Assembly (NCBI GenBank): GCA_003194445.1
Contig: PQXF01000008.1
Coordinates: 1 to 64,000 of the forward strand
Direction of reading: 5' to 3'
Source: Candidatus Methanogaster sp.
Lineage (GTDB): Archaea > Halobacteriota > Methanosarcinia > Methanosarcinales > Methanogasteraceae
Length of the DNA: 64,000 nucleotides
Shown here piece after piece: positions 2 to 58,915 of the stretch. Position numbers and translations under genes: made by a program. The first letter of the stretch is position 1, and every line of letters starts with the position of its first letter. The notes under the pieces are model-generated. The model had not been told where the DNA came from. It searched no databases and saw only the letters and a program-made list of their open reading frames with translations.

Positions 2-1018
2 CTCTTCCAAGCATCAAAAGTAACCATGGAGGATATGATAAAATTCTCAAATAAAAGAAGCAAAAAGAAAACCAAGCTGAAAATTGGCATGATTCAGGTT
101 TTGCATACATATGGTGCGGACATGAAATATAATCCTCATGTTCACGGCATTGTTACCGAAGGTGGTTTTGACGGGAAGAAAAATTGGATACATGTAAACT
201 TCATACGCTATGAGGGTTGGAGGAAGAAGTGGCAGTATGAGTTACTGACAAGGCTAAAAGAGGAAATGCCGAGATGCAAGGAGACAAATGATTTCATAGA
301 CCGGCATTTCAAAAAATATCCGAATGGATTTGTGATTTACGGAAAACGAAGATTCGAAAAGAGAGAAGGATGGAACATGGCAAGGTATATTGGCAGGTAT
401 GTGAAACATCCGCCAATAGCTGAATCGAGGATCACAGCTTATGATGGAAAACAGGTGACATTCTGGTACAAGGACACAAAAACCAAACGGACGATAACTG
501 TAACAATGGATAAGTTCGAGTTCGTCAGAACACTCCTGAGCCACATACCTAAGAAAAATTTTAAAATTGTAAGATACTGTGGCATATATTCAAGAAGGGG
601 CTATAAACACCGGCAAACCGAATTCAGTGAAGAAGAAGCAAAGCTGGTAATAAGGAGCTGGAGAGATGAAATCAAGAGAGTGTTCCACCACGATCCTTTG
701 TTGTGCCCCAATTGCAATACTGAGATGAAACTTGTAGGAATTTGCTATGAGGGGAGTGAAAACTATCCTGTGGAAGATGAAACATTATCTGGTAAACCTC
801 CACCAAATCAAAATTTAAGTCAACGGGAAAGGATGCAGTTAATTGTAGCTCTGATTAGAGAAAATCAGAGTGGAGGAGGGGCAAATATAGGGGTAGTGAT
901 CTCAGAAGCCGCTGAAAGAGGCATAGATAGAGAGCAAACTCTTAATGACATTCAACATTTGAAATCTGAGGGATATGCCTATGAGCCTAAAACTGGGGAA
1001 ATTAGATGTGCGCTGTGA
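2..1018 (+). CDS. IS91-type (Y2/HUH) transposase, left end outside window, with MCM-like winged-helix tail
   Basis: The frame is open to the left edge, so the true start and the N-terminal zinc finger lie outside. The HUH motif of single-strand transposases is visible as NPHVHGIVTEGG, and the catalytic tyrosine region as ARYIGRYVKHPPIAESRI with two tyrosines four residues apart, as in IS91/IS801-type enzymes. A CPNC zinc knuckle follows. The last 65 residues or so are not typical of IS91: after LSQRERMQLIV they form a winged-helix-like segment ending in a beta hairpin (LKSEGYAYEPKTGEIR). This closely resembles the C-terminal tail of the MCM helicase at 55175-58915 (LKTQGELYEPTQGNVRLS). Family assignment rests on motifs; the tail homology is read by eye. 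Confidence 0.85.
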   Translation, partial: LFQASKVTMEDMIKFSNKRSKKKTKLKIGMIQVLHTYGADMKYNPHVHGIVTEGGFDGKKNWIHVNFIRYEGWRKKWQYELLTRLKEEMPRCKETNDFIDRHFKKYPNGFVIYGKRRFEKREGWNMARYIGRYVKHPPIAESRITAYDGKQVTFWYKDTKTKRTITVTMDKFEFVRTLLSHIPKKNFKIVRYCGIYSRRGYKHRQTEFSEEEAKLVIRSWRDEIKRVFHHDPLLCPNCNTEMKLVGICYEGSENYPVEDETLSGKPPPNQNLSQRERMQLIVALIRENQSGGGANIGVVISEAAERGIDREQTLNDIQHLKSEGYAYEPKTGEIRCAL

Positions 1019-1027
1019 GAACATCAG

Positions 1028-1570
1028 TCAATTTTGCCCCGAAGGGGCTTTCTCGATGCGCGGGATCTTGTAGAACGTAATAACATCATATGAAGTTAAT
1101 AATGCCATTATAAATAGCAACGAAACTGACCTGATAGATGGAAGAGTACTAATAAGCCCAAAAGTCGCAATCATTACAGAAAGGATCGTTATGCCCAAAT
1201 TCCCGATCGCAGACAATCTTTGCTTAAATATAGGCTGAATCATAAAATCCTCCCACAAAGGAATTGACTTAGGCCACACTACCCCTTTATTGAGTATCGG
1301 CTCAAGATAGCAACGGATATATACGCCGATTCGTTTGATTGAAAAGCTATAACCATTTATTAACAAGTCGAAAAACACTGCTGCTAATGCAGGAACAACA
1401 AGAATTTCAATGGGGACACTCTGTAAATTCGCAACGATTAACCCAGACCCAACACTCACAAAAGTGATCTTAAATCCGATCAGTTGGGTTCGGATCTTCT
1501 GTGCTTCAAGAATTTCTTTTCTTAGCTCAGTATATAGAAATTTCGCAAGTTCAACACGATCCATAGCCAT
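1028..1570 (-). CDS. Hypothetical membrane protein with about four transmembrane helices
   Basis: A 180-residue protein not recognised as a known family. A charged, helical N-terminus (MAMDRVELAKFLYTELRK) is followed by hydrophobic segments near GFKITFVSVGSGLIVANL, IEILVVPALAAVFFDLLI, IGNLGITILSVMIATFGL and SVSLLFIMALLTSY, in two pairs. The start at 1570 is chosen because GGAG lies about six bases upstream; the frame is open 12 codons further but without a ribosome site. It is convergent with the transposase, whose stop is 9 bases away. The 2+2 helix layout resembles small membrane effectors of conflict systems, but no motif supports that. Confidence 0.6.
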   Translation of the reverse strand: MAMDRVELAKFLYTELRKEILEAQKIRTQLIGFKITFVSVGSGLIVANLQSVPIEILVVPALAAVFFDLLINGYSFSIKRIGVYIRCYLEPILNKGVVWPKSIPLWEDFMIQPIFKQRLSAIGNLGITILSVMIATFGLISTLPSIRSVSLLFIMALLTSYDVITFYKIPRIEKAPSGQN

Positions 1571-2855: not shown

Positions 2856-3454
2856 GGAATATATCACCAAAACACCCAAAAACCAGTACTCGATGTAGAG
2901 AAGAACACTCGTCACATGCGGATTGCCGTATGCGAACGGACCCGCACATATCGGACATCTCAGGACGTACATCCCGGCTGACCTGTTCGTGCGGTCGCTT
3001 CGGAAACAGGGGAAGGATACGACGTTTGTATGTGGATCCGATGCGCACGGCACGCCGATCGTAATCAATGCAGAGGAACTCGGCATAACGCCGACAGAAC
3101 TTGTACAAAAGTATCATGATCATTTTGATGAGACTTTCAAGTCACTAAATATCATATTCGACAAATTCGGAAACACCGAATCCGATACAAACCACAAACG
3201 CACCACAGAGATCGTGAATACACTGATTGTGAATGGTTATGTCTTTTCGCAGAGTATCGAACTCGCATACTGCCCGACGTGTGATCGTTTTCTGCCTGGC
3301 AGGTATGTCGAAGGTGTGTGTCCGGACTGCGGCGCTGTGGCGCGGGGCGATGAGTGCGATCAGGGCTGCGGCAAGCATCTTGAGCCGCTATGTAAAATAT
3401 GCAGGAGCAAAGCGGAATAGCGGGTGCAAGGGCACTTCTTTTTCAGATTATCAG
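2848..3454 (+). repeat. Direct repeat, left copy (metG leader and 5' part)
   Basis: This segment matches 4394-5017 almost base for base: the RaSEA-metG junction leader, the metG start region and about 190 codons. Differences are few: scattered substitutions, an 18-base in-frame deletion between two GAGCCG motifs, and two stop mutations. The left copy is contiguous with raSEA, so it probably marks the ancestral raSEA-metG junction. Everything from 3455 to 4393, including the NYN gene, lies between the two copies. Confidence 0.9.
2893..3420 (+). pseudogene. metG: Truncated methionyl-tRNA synthetase copy
   Basis: N-terminal 5' part of metG, nearly identical to the intact gene at 4438. Codon 2 is mutated from CAG to TAG, so the normal start gives a one-codon product. 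Reading on, the HIGH-type motif ([10 protein letters not shown]) and the zinc knuckles are intact until a second TAG at 3418 where the intact gene has TAC. Six residues (PGEILE in the intact gene) are deleted between short direct repeats. There is no KMSKS region or anticodon domain. It cannot make a working synthetase and is a decaying duplicate. Confidence 0.9.
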
Positions 3455-4393: not shown

Positions 4394-5017
4394 GACCATA
4401 AGGAATATATCACCCAACATCCAAAAACCAGTACTCGATGCAGAGAAGAACACTCGTCACATGCGGACTGCCGTATGCGAACGGACCCGCGCATATCGGG
4501 CATCTCAGGACGTACATCCCGGCTGATCTGTTCGTGCGGTCGCTCCGGAAACAGGGGAAGGATACGACGTTTGTATGCGGATCCGATGCGCACGGCACGC
4601 CGATCGTGATTAATGCAGAGGAACTCGGCATAACGCCGACAGAACTTGTACAAAAGTATCATGATCATTTTGATGAGACTTTCAAGTCACTAAATATCAT
4701 ATTCGACAAATTCGGAAACACCGAATCAGAGACGAACCACAAACGCACCACAGAGATCGTGAATACACTGATTGCGAATGGTTATGTCTTTTCGCAGAGT
4801 ATCGAACTCGCATACTGCCCGACGTGTGATCGTTTTCTGCCTGACAGGTATGTCGAAGGTGTGTGCCCGGACTGCGGCGCTGTGGCGCGGGGCGATGAGT
4901 GTGATCAGGGTTGTGGCAAGCACCTTGAGCCGGGCGAGATTCTTGAGCCGCTATGTAAGATATGCAGGAGCAAAGCGGAATACCGGACACAAGAACACTT
5001 CTTTTTCAGATTATCAG
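4394..5017 (+). repeat. Direct repeat, right copy (metG leader and 5' part)
   Basis: Intact partner of 2848-3454. It includes about 44 bases upstream of the metG start, so the leader was duplicated with the gene. Upstream of 4394 the sequence no longer resembles raSEA. Confidence 0.9.
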
Positions 5018-38685: not shown

Positions 38686-38766
38686 CACCAAGTTGGACCT
38701 GGGCGATGATCACATAAATGAGGTGCGAAGGAGATACCTTAATAGAACAAAGTCTGAATGATGATT

Positions 38767-39414
38767 ATGAGGTACGGAATAGTGGTCGCTTGTCTGATGC
38801 TGTGCATATCAGTATCAGCATCCGGGTGCATCACCGAAGATAATGATACCAATGATATCAATGATAGCAAGGTGCACAAAATGATAGATATGAGCAATAA
38901 AACGATACTGATGGTCATCGCGCCATCTGATTTCAGGGATGAGGAACTCTTCATCCCAAAAGAATTTTTCGAGAAGAACGGGGCAGAGGTCGTGATAGCA
39001 TCTGAGAAGAAGGGAACAGCGAAAGGGATGCTTGGCGGGACTGCACCTGTCGATCTTCCCGTATCCGAAGTCGCTGTCAGCGATTATGATGCCGTCGTCT
39101 TTGTCGGAGGTTCTGGCGTTGAATCGCATAAACTCTACGAGAATGAGGCGTACCTGAAACTGGCAGCGGATGCAGAGAATTCCGAAAAGATCATCGGTGC
39201 GATCTGTCTCGGTCCGATGGTTCCTGCTGCTGCCGGCATCCTATCCGGAAAGAATGCGACCGTCTTTGAAAGCGGCACATCATACATCACCGGAAAAGGT
39301 GCCAGATACACAGGAGCGGAAGTGACCCGGGACGGCAGGATCATTACGGGGGAATGTCCTCATGCGGCAGAGGAGTTTGCACGGACGGTTTCCAAAGCAC
39401 TGACGCCTGGGTGA
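38767..39414 (+). CDS. DJ-1/PfpI-family lipoprotein, copy 1
   Basis: 215 residues. Signal and lipobox (VVACLMLCISVSASGC) target it to the outside of the membrane. The DJ-1/PfpI core follows: ILMVIAPSDFRDEELFIPKE (with the conserved Glu), ASEKKGTAKGMLGG, YDAVVFVGGSGVESHKLY and GAICLGPMVPAAAGIL containing the nucleophile-elbow Cys. Such proteins are proteases, deglycases or redox sensors; an anchored extracellular form is less usual. Nearly the same as the gene at 40761. Confidence 0.88.
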   Translation: MRYGIVVACLMLCISVSASGCITEDNDTNDINDSKVHKMIDMSNKTILMVIAPSDFRDEELFIPKEFFEKNGAEVVIASEKKGTAKGMLGGTAPVDLPVSEVAVSDYDAVVFVGGSGVESHKLYENEAYLKLAADAENSEKIIGAICLGPMVPAAAGILSGKNATVFESGTSYITGKGARYTGAEVTRDGRIITGECPHAAEEFARTVSKALTPG

Positions 39415-39424
39415 TTGAGAATCC

Positions 39425-39801
39425 ATGACGCCACACCTCGATCCGTGGGCATCTGCCGGCACCGACTACTACTCGAAGTTATTCGAGGAATTTGGGATCT
39501 AGTAATTCGAGGAACTTCTCCCGCATGTCCCGGACCCGTGTCCGTTCATGCGAAGGAGGATCATCTTCGAGCATCGGGCTATGAGCCGGTACTGGACGCA
39601 ATCGTCCACAAAAAGCCCTTCGCAGTGATGAGCGGTTTCATGCCGTCCGGGAGCAACCATCTCGGAAACAAGATGGTGATGGAGGAGATTATCTGGCGTC
39701 AGCATAATAGCGGCGATGCATTCGTCGGAATTGCTGACATGGAGGCGCATTCGGTCCGCGGGATGTCGTGGAAGGGTTGCCGGCGGATCGGGGTCGAGGG
39801 C
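39425..39801 (+). pseudogene. trpS: Truncated tryptophanyl-tRNA synthetase copy
   Basis: Matches the first 125 or so codons of trpS (41428). It has TAG TAA where the intact gene has CAA TCA (after GGGAT), a two-base loss near GGATCATCTTC, and ends abruptly near GGGGTCGAGG. Only the HIGH-like segment [14 protein letters not shown] survives. Non-functional. Confidence 0.9.
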
Positions 39802-40306: not shown

Positions 40307-40719
40307 AATTGTTCATCGATGCATCCGCATTTATAGCGCGGCTGGATAAGAAAGATGTGCACCATGGTGCTACAATCGAGGCATTCAGTGCAATTGCACG
40401 AGGAGTATATAAATACAACAGATTATATACATCAAATTATGTGCTGGATGAGTCTGTGACTCATATACTCTATCGAAGAAAGAGGCATGACCACGCCCTG
40501 CGGATGCTGGACTTGATCACAAACTCACAATACATCACCATGCTCTGGGTTACAGAATCTGTTCAAAGCAAGGCTATTTCCCTATTTAGAAAGTACACGG
40601 ATCAGCTACTCTCAATAACTGACTGTACAAGTGCTATTTTGATGAATGATTATAATATAGATGCAATATTCACATTCGATGGCGATTTTGAGGTGCTCAG
40701 ATTTGAAACGATTCCGTAG
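40303..40719 (+). CDS. vapC: PIN-domain toxin (VapC family)
   Basis: 138 residues. The four PIN acids are seen in FIDASAFIARLD, NYVLDESVTHIL, ITDCTSAILM and IFTFDGDF. Predicted ribonuclease, controlled by the preceding antitoxin. It starts with TTG or ATG-equivalent at the overlap. The stop codon is the exact left edge of the right-hand DJ-1/trpS repeat. Confidence 0.9.
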   Translation: MKLFIDASAFIARLDKKDVHHGATIEAFSAIARGVYKYNRLYTSNYVLDESVTHILYRRKRHDHALRMLDLITNSQYITMLWVTESVQSKAISLFRKYTDQLLSITDCTSAILMNDYNIDAIFTFDGDFEVLRFETIP

Positions 40720-41805
40720 CGAAGGAGATACCTTAATAGAACAAAGTCTGAATGATAATCATGAGATATAGAACAGTGGTCGCTTGTCTGATGCTGTGCA
40801 TATCAGTATCAGCATCCGGATGCATCACTGAATATACTGACAGCGACAATACCAATGATACCCATGATAACGAGGTGTTCAAAATGATAGATCTGAGCAA
40901 TAAAACGATACTGATGGTTATCGCGCCATCTGATTTCAGGGACGAGGAACTCTTCGTCCCAAAAGAGTTTTTCGAGAAGAACGGGGCAGAGGTCGTGATA
41001 GCATCTGAGAAGAAGGGGACAGCGAAAGGGATGCTTGGCGGGACTACACCCATCGATCTTTCCATATCTGATGCCGATATCAGCAATTATGATGCCGTCG
41101 TCTTTGTAGGGGGTTCCGGCATCAAATCGCATAAACTCTACGAGAACGAGGCGTACCTGAAACTGGCAACGGACGCTAGCAGTTCGGAAAAGGTCATCGG
41201 TGCGATCTGTCTCGGCCCGATGGTTCCTGCAGCTGCCGGCATCCTATCCGAAAAGAATGCGACCGTCTTTGAAAGCGGCACATCATACATCACCGGAAAA
41301 GGTGCCAGATACACAGGAGCGGAAGTGACCCGGGACGGCAGGATCATTACGGGGATAGGTCCTCATGCGGCAGAGGAGTTTGCACGGACGGTTTCCAAAG
41401 CACTGACGCCTGGGTGATTGAGAACCCATGACACCACATCTTGACCCATGGGCATCTGCCGGCATCGACGACTACTCGAAGTTATTCGAGGAATTTGGGA
41501 TACAATCATTCGAGGAACTCCTCCCGCATGTCCCGAATCCGTGCCCGTTCATGCGAAGGAGGATTATCTTCGGGCACAGAGGCTATGAGCCGGTACTGGA
41601 CGCGATCATCCACAAAAAGCCTTTTGCGGTGATGAGCGGTTTTATGCCGTCCGGGAGCAACCATCTCGGAAACAAGATGGTGATGGAGGAGATCATCTGG
41701 CATCAGCGCATGGGCGGCGATGCATTTGTCGGGATTGCTGACATGGAGGCGCATTCGGTCCGCGGGATGTCGTGGGACGCCTGTCGGCGGATCGGGGTCG
41801 AGGAT
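40719..41805 (+). repeat. Direct repeat, right copy (DJ-1 lipoprotein gene plus 5' part of trpS)
   Basis: Partner of 38725-39801; the trpS here continues to full length. Confidence 0.9.
40761..41417 (+). CDS. DJ-1/PfpI-family lipoprotein, copy 2
   Basis: 218 residues. Same signal, lipobox and catalytic segments as copy 1 (SDFRDEELFVPKEFF, GAICLGPMVPAAAGIL). Differences cluster in the linker after the lipobox and around residues 95-125, so both may be under selection. It lies ten bases before trpS. Confidence 0.88.
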   Translation: MRYRTVVACLMLCISVSASGCITEYTDSDNTNDTHDNEVFKMIDLSNKTILMVIAPSDFRDEELFVPKEFFEKNGAEVVIASEKKGTAKGMLGGTTPIDLSISDADISNYDAVVFVGGSGIKSHKLYENEAYLKLATDASSSEKVIGAICLGPMVPAAAGILSEKNATVFESGTSYITGKGARYTGAEVTRDGRIITGIGPHAAEEFARTVSKALTPG

Positions 41806-55174: not shown

Positions 55175-58100
55175 TCACGACAGCCTGACATTCCCCTGTG
55201 TGGGCTCGTAGAGTTCGCCCTGTGTCTTGAGTCTCCCGAGCATGTCCTCGACATGTGCCCTGTCAAACCCCTGCTCCTCGGCCATTGCACAGATGTCATC
55301 CTTCGAAGCCATGCCGCCGTGCTCTGCCGCAATATCACGTATGATGCCGCGCAGTATCTTGAACTTATCACGCTGGCTCTTGCTGACACCGGTGGTTATG
55401 AGGTCGGCATCAAACATGCCGGTCTCGGCATCGAACGCAACCTGCCGCAGGCAGCTCTCGACGACCCGGATCACACGCTCCGCATCCTCGATCGTGGATT
55501 CGTAGCTGAGCCGCAGCCTCGCGCTCGCCTCGCATAACCGCACCAACGCCTCAAGCTGCCTTGCTGTTACCGGTACCGGCGAGTCCCGATCCTCGCCCTG
55601 CCGCCGAAGCCCGAGATAGAACCCGATCAGACGATCCATTGCATCACGCTCCATGACCGGATAGACGCCCCTCTTCGCATAAGCGATGTACTTCCTGAGC
55701 AGATCCGGCATGATCTCCGGCTTTATGATCATCATCGCGCCCTCGACATCCGCTTGCGTGACGCCGCTACCTGAGACATTGGTCCGGTGGGCATGAAGTT
55801 CGCCTGCATGGTGCGCTCTAAGAATGTGGGATGCGATAGCCGAGTCCCTGCCGACATCGGGTTCATCCTTGAGCACGAAGATCAAGTCGAATCTGGAGAG
55901 GAGCGCAGGCGCCATCTTGATCTGCTGCGCGATTCCTTCGTACGGGTCGAACCGCCCATATTTTGGATTCGCAGCACCGAGAAGGGAACATCTTGACTTC
56001 AGGGTTGCCATGATTCCTGCTTTCGCAATACTTACCGTGTTATGAAGGATCAGCCCGTTGCTCACGAACGTGTGGTCCGGCTCAACCGTAACGTCATAAA
56101 CCCAGTCGAAACCATCGTTTTCGACCATTGATACTGATTTAACAGTCGTAAACCGGATGTCAGACTCAATAATTCTTTTTATGTCTTTAACCTCCTCCCT
56201 TGATGCTTCGATATTCGCTTTCGCGATACACCTGACCTGTTCTAACAGGGGGGTTGCGTTCGGTGCAGACGGGTTCCTTTCGATAGATGTCACCATCCAA
56301 TTTGAAATATGCATCTGTTCAGCGATCAGATATGTAGGGATCCAGTATTTCTTTCGTATCTCCCTCGGGTTCACCATCTCATCGATGTCGTGTGGCTGGA
56401 TGCCGGCCAGATGTGATTCGACCTTGTTTAAGTATTTCAGAGCAACTTTTCTGTGAACCCCCCTTTTTTTCGCGATGGTCTTGTTGAAATTGCCGTGATA
56501 CAACCTGTAACCCTTTAGCTGTGTTTTTATCCGGATTGCGACATCGACAGGCACACGGTTATAATCGTTTAGTGTACTTTCGCGTCCGGATGTACACCTC
56601 TTTATTTTTCTATTTCTCAAGTCATGTTTCCCGATGACATCGTAAAACTTTTGTCGGCTGCCATATCCGGATATCATCACTTTGTACCTGTTTGACCCGT
56701 ATTTATCAGAGGAAGTGATGCATGAATAGATGCCCAAACAGAGCAATAAATCAGAATAATCGTTTGCCAGACCGATCGAATTCGTGGTATATCCAAACCG
56801 CTCGGAATCGCAAAAACCATCACCGCGGAACGCACCGATCAAGAATTCTGTCCTGACATCGTCGTGTGATATAAATACCTGGCCAGGAATTCGCTTTTCA
56901 TCCGATCCACCCGTTATGCCCTCGAAATTCAGTTTCATGAATTCGTACAGCGAACTTGATGCACACCTAACCGTGTACAAATCCGTTGTAATGGCTTCGT
57001 CGTCGACGCTTGCGTTGGTGGTTTTTCTTACACTATGCCGCCGATACCGGATAGATGTCGCGGCGTCAAAGGTCCTCCGGATCAGATTATCCGTATCGTT
57101 TATGATACTAAGATCGGCGTTCGAGATTATGACCTCAGCAGCGTTGTTCTTCTCTGAATAACAGACATGCCCCTCGCTAACGATATGCCCAAGCAGTCTA
57201 CCGAGATCGCTGTCAAGATGTGTCGGAAATGATATCTCCGTGTAACTGGAATCATGCTCACGTTGACGCAAATCCGGGATTTGCAATGCGACCGCTGAAC
57301 TGACGAGTGGATATTTAGTTGGAATTGGGGCAAACGCCCCCACCTCAAGCTCATCTGCCAGCACGGTTATTATCTCGCCGTTTTGCACGACATAAACAGG
57401 GTGTTCCGGTGTAACGGTGATGCTTCTTCCGTTCGAGTACGTGATCCGTATGAAGTGGTCGGGTGCCTTATGCCGGCTGACGCGGTTGATTGGTATCTGG
57501 CATATATTATTATCCCGATCAAGTGTCAATATCTCTGCGCCGTCAAGATCGTGGTTACCATCGAAGGGTAAAATCTCACAATCAACTCCATCTACAGTCT
57601 TATCCTGGTTATTTTCGATAAGCGTATCAACAAACTCCCCCATCCTGACTTTCCGCCCATCCGAAAACATAATCTCGGTGAACGGGTGATATGATTGCTG
57701 CTCCATCGCCTCATGAATCGCGCTCCTGTCCTCCGATCGCATCTTATCCATCTCATCGACCGCTGCGATCCCCTGATCTGCAAGCACGAGTGCGCCAGCC
57801 TCAAGCGTCCATCTACCATCGCCGAACTCGTCGCGGACAGCAGCCGCGGTAAGCCCAGCTGCCGAACTTGAGCGACCACTCGTATATATCCCGCGGGGCG
57901 CAAGTTTCCTGATGTACCTGAGAAGCTGTGACTTCGCGATCCCGGGATCGCCGACAAGCAGCACATGCATATCCCCGCGGACCCTTGCGCCGTCAGGAAG
58001 ATTCTTTGGAACGCCGCTCATCAACTGGAGCGCAAGTGCCTCCTTCACCTCCTCGTAACCATAGATGGATGGGGCGATCGATGCAATGATTTTTTTGTAT

Positions 58101-58915
58101 ATCTCTGGGTCTTCACTGAGTTTTACGATCTCTTCTTCCTCTTCCGGCGTGATCTCGATCTCTGTGAACTCCTTGTCCTTCGTCTCGATCGAGACCGAGT
58201 CGAGTATGATATCAAAGAACGTACTCTTCCCTTCGCGCGTGATCCGCTGGTACGATCGCAGGATTCCTGCAACGATCACATGATCTCCGGGCGCTACGAT
58301 CCCGGCAATATCATCCTCGATATTGACATCAAGGGTCTGCGGCTGTTCTCCCCCACGCATATCCTCCGGAGATTCTTGCACCCGCAGTTTCTGTGCGTCT
58401 ATAAACTCCGATTCAGTAAGTTTTATCTTAAACGGTCCTTTTCTCCCGCACCCCTCGTTTTTACACATATACGGCTCCACAAACCGCCCGCTGGACTGGG
58501 GTATGAGCATAGTCTCTCCACACCCGTTGCATTCGAATGCCGCGACAAGCAATCGCGGGCGCACCTCGGTCGCCATGCGCACAAGCCCCTCGATAGCGAT
58601 CAGTTTTGAGATGTGGATGCTCCTGAGATCCCGTATCTTGACCTTCTGCGGAATGTCCGTGATCCGCAGATGTGCACCTGCAAGTGTCTTCTTGATCGGG
58701 AGATCGAAACTCCGGAGTGCTTCTTCTGCGGTACTGAGAATCTGATCCGGATGCGCCAGAAGTTCGTCTGCCAGATCCGGATCGAATTTCTCGATATTTA
58801 CGAAATCAACATATAGACTCCGGATTTCCGGGTATTCGTTCGCCAGAGCAAGGATGTCTCCGATGTAATATCGATTAAAAAACTTATCCCATTGTGCAGA
58901 TGTGTCGGTTTTCAT
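55175..58915 (-). CDS. mcm: MCM replicative helicase containing an intein
   Basis: 1246-residue precursor. Exteins join to 694 residues, a normal archaeal MCM: N-terminal domain with zinc ligands CNGCGETM and CKNEGCGRKG, Walker A VGDPGIAKSQLLRYI, Walker B AAVDEMDKM, arginine finger ALLSRFDLIF, and C-terminal winged helix ending LYEPTQGNVRLS. The intein breaks the chain between EAMEQQ and TVSIAKAG, in the conserved segment after Walker B. The unwinding enzyme is essential, so splicing is required. Start ATG 58915. Confidence 0.96.
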   Translation of the reverse strand: MKTDTSAQWDKFFNRYYIGDILALANEYPEIRSLYVDFVNIEKFDPDLADELLAHPDQILSTAEEALRSFDLPIKKTLAGAHLRITDIPQKVKIRDLRSIHISKLIAIEGLVRMATEVRPRLLVAAFECNGCGETMLIPQSSGRFVEPYMCKNEGCGRKGPFKIKLTESEFIDAQKLRVQESPEDMRGGEQPQTLDVNIEDDIAGIVAPGDHVIVAGILRSYQRITREGKSTFFDIILDSVSIETKDKEFTEIEITPEEEEEIVKLSEDPEIYKKIIASIAPSIYGYEEVKEALALQLMSGVPKNLPDGARVRGDMHVLLVGDPGIAKSQLLRYIRKLAPRGIYTSGRSSSAAGLTAAAVRDEFGDGRWTLEAGALVLADQGIAAVDEMDKMRSEDRSAIHEAMEQQSYHPFTEIMFSDGRKVRMGEFVDTLIENNQDKTVDGVDCEILPFDGNHDLDGAEILTLDRDNNICQIPINRVSRHKAPDHFIRITYSNGRSITVTPEHPVYVVQNGEIITVLADELEVGAFAPIPTKYPLVSSAVALQIPDLRQREHDSSYTEISFPTHLDSDLGRLLGHIVSEGHVCYSEKNNAAEVIISNADLSIINDTDNLIRRTFDAATSIRYRRHSVRKTTNASVDDEAITTDLYTVRCASSSLYEFMKLNFEGITGGSDEKRIPGQVFISHDDVRTEFLIGAFRGDGFCDSERFGYTTNSIGLANDYSDLLLCLGIYSCITSSDKYGSNRYKVMISGYGSRQKFYDVIGKHDLRNRKIKRCTSGRESTLNDYNRVPVDVAIRIKTQLKGYRLYHGNFNKTIAKKRGVHRKVALKYLNKVESHLAGIQPHDIDEMVNPREIRKKYWIPTYLIAEQMHISNWMVTSIERNPSAPNATPLLEQVRCIAKANIEASREEVKDIKRIIESDIRFTTVKSVSMVENDGFDWVYDVTVEPDHTFVSNGLILHNTVSIAKAGIMATLKSRCSLLGAANPKYGRFDPYEGIAQQIKMAPALLSRFDLIFVLKDEPDVGRDSAIASHILRAHHAGELHAHRTNVSGSGVTQADVEGAMMIIKPEIMPDLLRKYIAYAKRGVYPVMERDAMDRLIGFYLGLRRQGEDRDSPVPVTARQLEALVRLCEASARLRLSYESTIEDAERVIRVVESCLRQVAFDAETGMFDADLITTGVSKSQRDKFKILRGIIRDIAAEHGGMASKDDICAMAEEQGFDRAHVEDMLGRLKTQGELYEPTQGNVRLS
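56039..57694 (-). other. Intein in MCM, 552 residues, with LAGLIDADG endonuclease
   Basis: Residues 408-959 of the precursor. Splicing block A starts with Ser (SYHPFTEIMFSDGRKVRM); block B is SITVTPEHPVYVV; the end is YDVTVEPDHTFVSNGLILHN followed by Thr of the C-extein. Two LAGLIDADG motifs (LGRLLGHIVSEGHVCY and EFLIGAFRGDGFCDSE) indicate a homing endonuclease. All splicing residues (Ser1, block B Thr and His, penultimate His, terminal Asn, Thr+1) are present, so it should be active. Confidence 0.95.

Follow-up and report, generated by a model that had tools for sequence, protein, structure and literature searches.

An archaeal IS91-type transposase with an MCM-like winged-helix tail that may serve as a tethered replisome-docking module

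The transposase gene at the left edge of the window (the whole 64,000-nucleotide stretch analysed here) belongs to an IS91-type element whose protein ends in a winged helix resembling that at the C-terminus of archaeal MCM helicases. We give an even chance to the reading that this tail, most simply explained by a single gain, acts as a tethered replisome-docking module; it is probably a handle for borrowing the DNA-copying machinery of the host. IS91-type transposases encode no helicase, whereas Helitrons do (PMC5876387), and it is therefore an unsettled matter how these elements draw on the host to unwind and synthesise DNA.

The open reading frame at 2-1018 on the forward strand encodes 338 aa and represents the 3′ two-thirds of an insertion sequence of the IS91 family. 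Its 5′ end is open because the window begins at base 1 of the contig (C158); the contig thus lacks approximately 137 residues of the N-terminus, among them the zinc-binding domain, and a search of the same genome did not recover them. The features discussed here are as follows.

2..1018, forward strand: IS91-family HUH/Y2 transposase, 5′-truncated by the contig edge (Pfam; NF033538 transpos_IS91 on the full-length relative L042)
86..595, forward strand: Y2_Tnp catalytic domain (PF04986), residues 29-198 (Pfam)
137..145, forward strand: HUH motif H46-V-H48 (NPHVHGIV); the H46 and H48 columns are nearly invariant in the transposase alignment
386..400, forward strand: Y2 motif Y129-x3-Y133 (ARYIGRYVKHP); Y129 and Y133 are nearly invariant in the transposase alignment
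704..715, forward strand: CPxC pair of a C-terminal zinc-ribbon-like segment (transposase alignment)
767..817, forward strand: proline-rich linker PVEDETLSGKPPPNQNL, of low confidence in the full-length model
818..1009, forward strand: MCM-type winged-helix tail, residues 273-336 (profile, structure and selection analyses)
1034..1055, forward strand: right (ori) end, a GCCCC-GAA-GGGGC hairpin followed by TTTCTCG (consensus TTTCTTG, with CTTG changed to CTCG here; end comparison)
55181..55384, reverse strand: for comparison, the winged helix at the C-terminus of the host MCM helicase, whose gene spans 55175-58915 (Pfam and genome search)

That the gene encodes an IS91-type transposase, as an earlier note on this DNA had claimed, is borne out by the Y2_Tnp match (E 7.6e-38) and by the full-length relatives, which are ∼467-475 aa long (L042-L045: 475, 474, 477 and 474 aa counted from the preceding stop codon) and carry an additional N-terminal Zn_Tnp_IS91 domain (PF14319 on L042); L042 scores 280.6 bits (cut-off 125; E 1.7e-83) against the NCBIfam model NF033538. 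The HUH and two-tyrosine motifs and the IS91 zinc domain are thus all accounted for, and the Y129-x3-Y133 spacing equals that of Y249/Y253 in IS91 TnpA (PMC5714925). The Zn_Tnp_IS91 and Y2_Tnp domains and the HUH and Y-x3-Y motifs are shared with IS91, IS801, IS1294 and ISCR, as are a right-end hairpin beside CTTG, tandem end-to-end junctions and the lack of a helicase. What sets the tailed clade apart from this family is an extra MCM-type winged helix of ∼65 aa, borne on a proline-rich linker after the zinc ribbon; in the alignment, tailless relatives end shortly past the CPxC segment. The first ∼140 codons of L042 contain no ATG, and translation in L042-L045 probably begins at a GTG that lies in an inverted repeat of the left end (GATTTC.TTGGCTTT...AAAGCCAAGAAATC).

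The tail had been noticed through a by-eye match to the C-terminus of the MCM helicase in the same window, and the match was recovered by search: residues 273-336 align with 32% identity, and the match has an E of 5.5e-4 when the entire 3.6-Mb genome is searched, so it is not a chance resemblance. Since this gene, like most copies, sits at the end of a draft-genome contig, a frame error, mis-assembly or read-through could in principle have fused an unrelated reading frame to the transposase. The earlier note had named absence of the tail from close relatives as the sign of such an error, and the relatives show the opposite: all four full-length relatives (64-77% overall identity), which are independent genes, carry the tail, and it occurs in transposases or remnants of at least 15 genomes of the order Methanosarcinales, Methanoperedens included. 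Fragments or remnants were found in the Methanoperedens family (f4), in family f3 and in the window's own family (f1). In each copy the element's right end follows the tail stop codon and is conserved, which places the tail within the element. Every row compared has a tail of 66 residues, counted from SQ to its end, and none has an indel. Its dN is well below dS in all pairs (0.21 and 1.28, respectively, for the window copy and L044), and by this measure it is under purifying selection, which also argues against an artefact, although it is less constrained and faster-evolving than the catalytic core. Frame error and mis-assembly of the tail are thus ruled out by the relatives, and artefact as a whole is exceedingly improbable. 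A Bathyarchaeota contig (L040) has a 71% identical core and masked bases at the expected tail position, and no tailed reading frame was found in the IMG/VR match L152.

MCM outscored every other winged-helix family tried, in agreement with the proposal that the tail is of MCM type. In profile-profile comparisons with hhalign, whose E-values are pairwise, the tail scored 87.6 against MCM and 95.9 against a wider MCM set, as compared to 72.6 for the C-termini of RPA-associated (OB-fold) proteins and 56.2 for DUF5817, two sets gathered because they matched the tail, 54.5 for HVO_B0008, and at most 14.5 for four unrelated HTH or other window proteins. A PDB search with a single tail sequence returned archaeal MCM 2ma3 first, the four best entries of a profile search of the PDB (2m45, 8x7t, 2ma3 and 4fdg) were all archaeal MCM, and the NCBIfam MCM model matched the tail at 6.9e-6. 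When genomes were scanned in six frames with the tail profile, 228 of 295 had a match, and the best 29 matches outside the window were all MCM C-termini. A single 77-residue query gave three matches, all helicases, in 2.3 Gb of phage records, and mostly MCM genes in 7.3 Gb of plasmid records, where two further matches were small hypothetical proteins and a third was unannotated. MCM C-termini were therefore the closest winged helices in profile, genome, phage and plasmid searches alike, and a generic winged helix matching the tail better than MCM was looked for by sequence and profile but not found. The Haloarcula taiwanensis plasmid pNYT2 encodes, between genes for an AAA-family ATPase and Cdc6, a free-standing protein of 178 aa that has an MCM-like tail (L255, 2168-2701).

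Pfam searches with the tail alone gave MCM_WH_arc at 1.3e-3, MCM_C at 2e-3 and HVO_B0008_C at 3.9e-5, all below curated cut-offs. The MCM_WH_arc (PF21120) cut-off is uninformative here because the window's true MCM also falls below it (22.6 bits, and 19.2 for the tail, against 26.1). HVO_B0008_C, despite its best Pfam score, was rejected as the better match since the profile comparison favours MCM (87.6 vs 54.5) and the family, which is rare and haloarchaeal, has mostly MCMs as its own next matches. The archaeal MCM C-terminal winged helix (PF21120/PF21100; 2ma3, 2m45) is the best match by profile, sequence and fold, and shares with the tail an SQ-x-[DE]-[RK] start and an LK..G..YEP..G..R end, but MCM has a two-residue insertion before the second helix that the tail lacks. 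The tailed transposase, unlike MCM, carries no AAA+ helicase: a domain search of the window copy and its relatives found no AAA+ P-loop, OB or lid domains of MCM. The C-terminal winged helix of archaeal RPA and RPA-associated (COG3390-like) proteins aligns with the tail gap-free and is also tethered, at the end of a single-strand-DNA protein, and that of Rpa2 (PolD-bound, 9f2a; also bound by PriSL) gives a TMq of 0.69-0.70 with the tail; its profile score is nevertheless below that of MCM, and the transposase has no OB fold. On sequence and profile grounds the tail is MCM-like rather than a generic winged helix. The same kind of C-terminal winged helix is present in COG3390-like RPA-associated OB-fold proteins (L062-L065, L068-L072, L213-L218), where it is mostly missed by Pfam and NCBIfam. 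In the host MCM gene (55175-58915, reverse strand), a large intein that bears a LAGLIDADG domain sits in the P-loop region (Pfam Intein_splicing 8.3e-18).

The suggestion that the tail was borrowed from MCM stood only in part: it is of MCM type, but MCM itself may not have been its source. In a tree of 59 winged helices, transposase tails, MCM, RPA-associated proteins and DUF5817 formed four clades, with the tails in a clade of their own (100/95) and MCM in one clade (94/95); with 70 columns, the tree is weak on branching order. Among the MCMs sampled, none grouped so as to enclose the tails. Recent capture from the host's own MCM was rejected, as the identity is only 32% and the tails are not nested in MCM. 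By these comparisons the tail is a separate lineage within a small archaeal winged-helix family found on replication proteins (MCM, RPA-associated COG3390-like proteins, DUF5817 and HVO_B0008). In the tree of transposase cores, the tailed proteins form one clade (100/100), and the tailless archaeal and bacterial IS91 transposases all fall outside it. The tail was absent from every bacterial and other archaeal IS91 transposase examined, and tailless copies in the same genome (contigs C114, C31 and C136) stop soon after the zinc ribbon. The simplest reading of this distribution is a single gain, in which the transposase of one archaeal IS91 clade would have acquired the linker and winged helix together. 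As the earlier note had surmised, no IS91 element with such a tail was found described in the open-access PMC literature.

An AlphaFold2 (AF2) prediction of the tail gave a winged helix with a mean pLDDT of 87, its elements ordered helix, strand, helix, helix and two strands. In the model of full-length L042, whose core is poor (mean pLDDT 55) and which was used for the linker and tail alone, the tail is the best-modelled part and sits behind a disordered linker (pLDDT <50 at 388-408). Foldseek with the tail returned 2ma3 first (best E 0.035), with linker histone, Z-alpha and IdeR close behind; because winged-helix families rank so closely, fold comparison alone does not decide MCM kinship. 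Invariant residues (LK, G, Y, GEI) mark the end of helix 3 and strands 2-3, and the recognition helix varies over its first half. The former surface is the canonical partner-binding face of a winged helix (PMC11686378), and the conservation pattern of the tail is compatible with docking of the kind seen for the Rpa2 winged helix, although the invariant LK..G..YEP..GEI residues may be purely structural.

According to flank comparison, 1523-1536 bp separate the left end (ACGTATAGGAAAGTATAAA) from the right end (TTGCCCCGA(T)AGGGGCTTTCTTG); the two ends differ from each other and both are fixed. In ∼20 copies the right-end hairpin abuts CTTG, as GCCCCGA(T)AGGGGCTTTCTTG, and is followed by unrelated flanks; a search of 186 genomes gave 37 exact right ends, spread over 14 genomes, and none for a reversed-pattern control. 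In tandem junctions the right end runs straight into the left end, CTTG being followed directly by ACGTATAGG (L185, L199, L204, L210). Miniature elements of 104 bp consist of the left and right ends alone (L184, L204/L210; G025 and G030, of the window's genus), and at one site two of them lie in tandem, joined at CTTG. The ends, tandem junctions and miniatures appear to fit IS91-type rolling-circle transposition (reviewed in PMC5714925). The window copy itself may be inactive because CTTG is changed to CTCG and its 5′ end lies off the contig; a pattern scan found no left end in the window, as expected of a truncated copy. Tailless sister elements have the same hairpin-TTTCTTG end and several copies per genome, and the tail is thus not essential to the chemistry.

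The tail could instead bind DNA, recognising the hairpin or left end of its own element and so replacing or reinforcing end recognition. Such a role has precedent in the Rep-Arvir rolling-circle initiators of archaeal viruses, whose fused MarR-like wHTH has been proposed as the part that binds the hairpin origin (PMC13107129), and the net charge of the tail is slightly positive (mean +0.9, as compared to -1.7 for MCM and -2.8 for the RPA-associated proteins). However, the ends hardly differ from copy to copy, in contrast to the freely varying positions of the recognition helix (49-58 of tail alignment A1), the tailless sisters retain the same end, and the nearest relatives of the tail are protein-interaction or regulatory winged helices; we thus regard end recognition as rather unlikely. 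We consider it less probable still that the tail serves in regulation or assembly (oligomerisation, autoinhibition or stability) with no replisome partner. The winged helix of SsoMCM would be the model for such a role, the MCM winged helix being described, in work cited in PMC11686378, as an allosteric regulator of ATPase and helicase, and the weaker constraint on the tail than on the core would suit it, but a long, proline-rich disordered linker would be expected of a tethered bait more than of a packed regulator.

Replisome docking is favoured over both of these because the tail is tethered by a linker, the helix-3/strands 2-3 face is invariant, and the winged helices of Rpa2 and MCM are themselves handles. 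That of archaeal Rpa2 binds the primase PriSL (25 nM) and PolD (about 100 nM) and stimulates primase only if tethered to RPA, as a "WH-bait", while that of MCM binds Orc1 and regulates the helicase (PMC11686378). Recruitment to forks or single-stranded DNA, as the earlier note had suggested, can reasonably be inferred from the work on archaeal Rpa2 (PMC11686378). Under replisome docking, the Y2 domain would nick at the hairpin/CTTG of the right end, and host replisome proteins would reach the nick through the tethered winged helix, the candidate partners being PriSL/PolD, on the model of archaeal Rpa2, or MCM/Orc1, on that of the MCM winged helix. The recruited proteins would then unwind and copy the element, and docking would stand in for the helicase that is absent from IS91 transposases and present in Helitrons. 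The Helitron (HUH-Y2 Rep plus helicase) is likewise a Y2 rolling-circle transposase to which a replication-type module has been added, but it has an active helicase, whereas the tailed transposase has just a helicase's accessory domain. That the tail is a mimic of a replisome winged helix which captures replication machinery at the nick, and so forms a counterpart of the Helitron helicase assembled in trans, is a more tentative proposal, to which we give slightly less than even weight. Many winged helices bind DNA, the tail evolves faster than the core, and the tailless sisters are multicopy, all of which counts against docking.

This natural fusion to an MCM-type winged helix points to PriSL, PolD, MCM and Orc1 as candidate host partners, and the tail is a clean domain for deletion. 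It also marks the small archaeal winged helix as a portable module, present on MCM, on RPA-associated proteins and in at least one transposon lineage.

Elsewhere in the window are two duplications. One is direct (2871-3454 and 4416-5017; 97% over 300 nt, 1545 bp apart) and consists of a truncated copy of the start of a methionyl-tRNA synthetase gene just upstream of the full gene. The other is in tandem (38725-39799 and 40719-41803; ∼2.0 kb apart, 83-91%), its unit containing a DJ-1/PfpI-like gene and the start of the downstream gene (likely tryptophanyl-tRNA synthetase), with one copy truncated.
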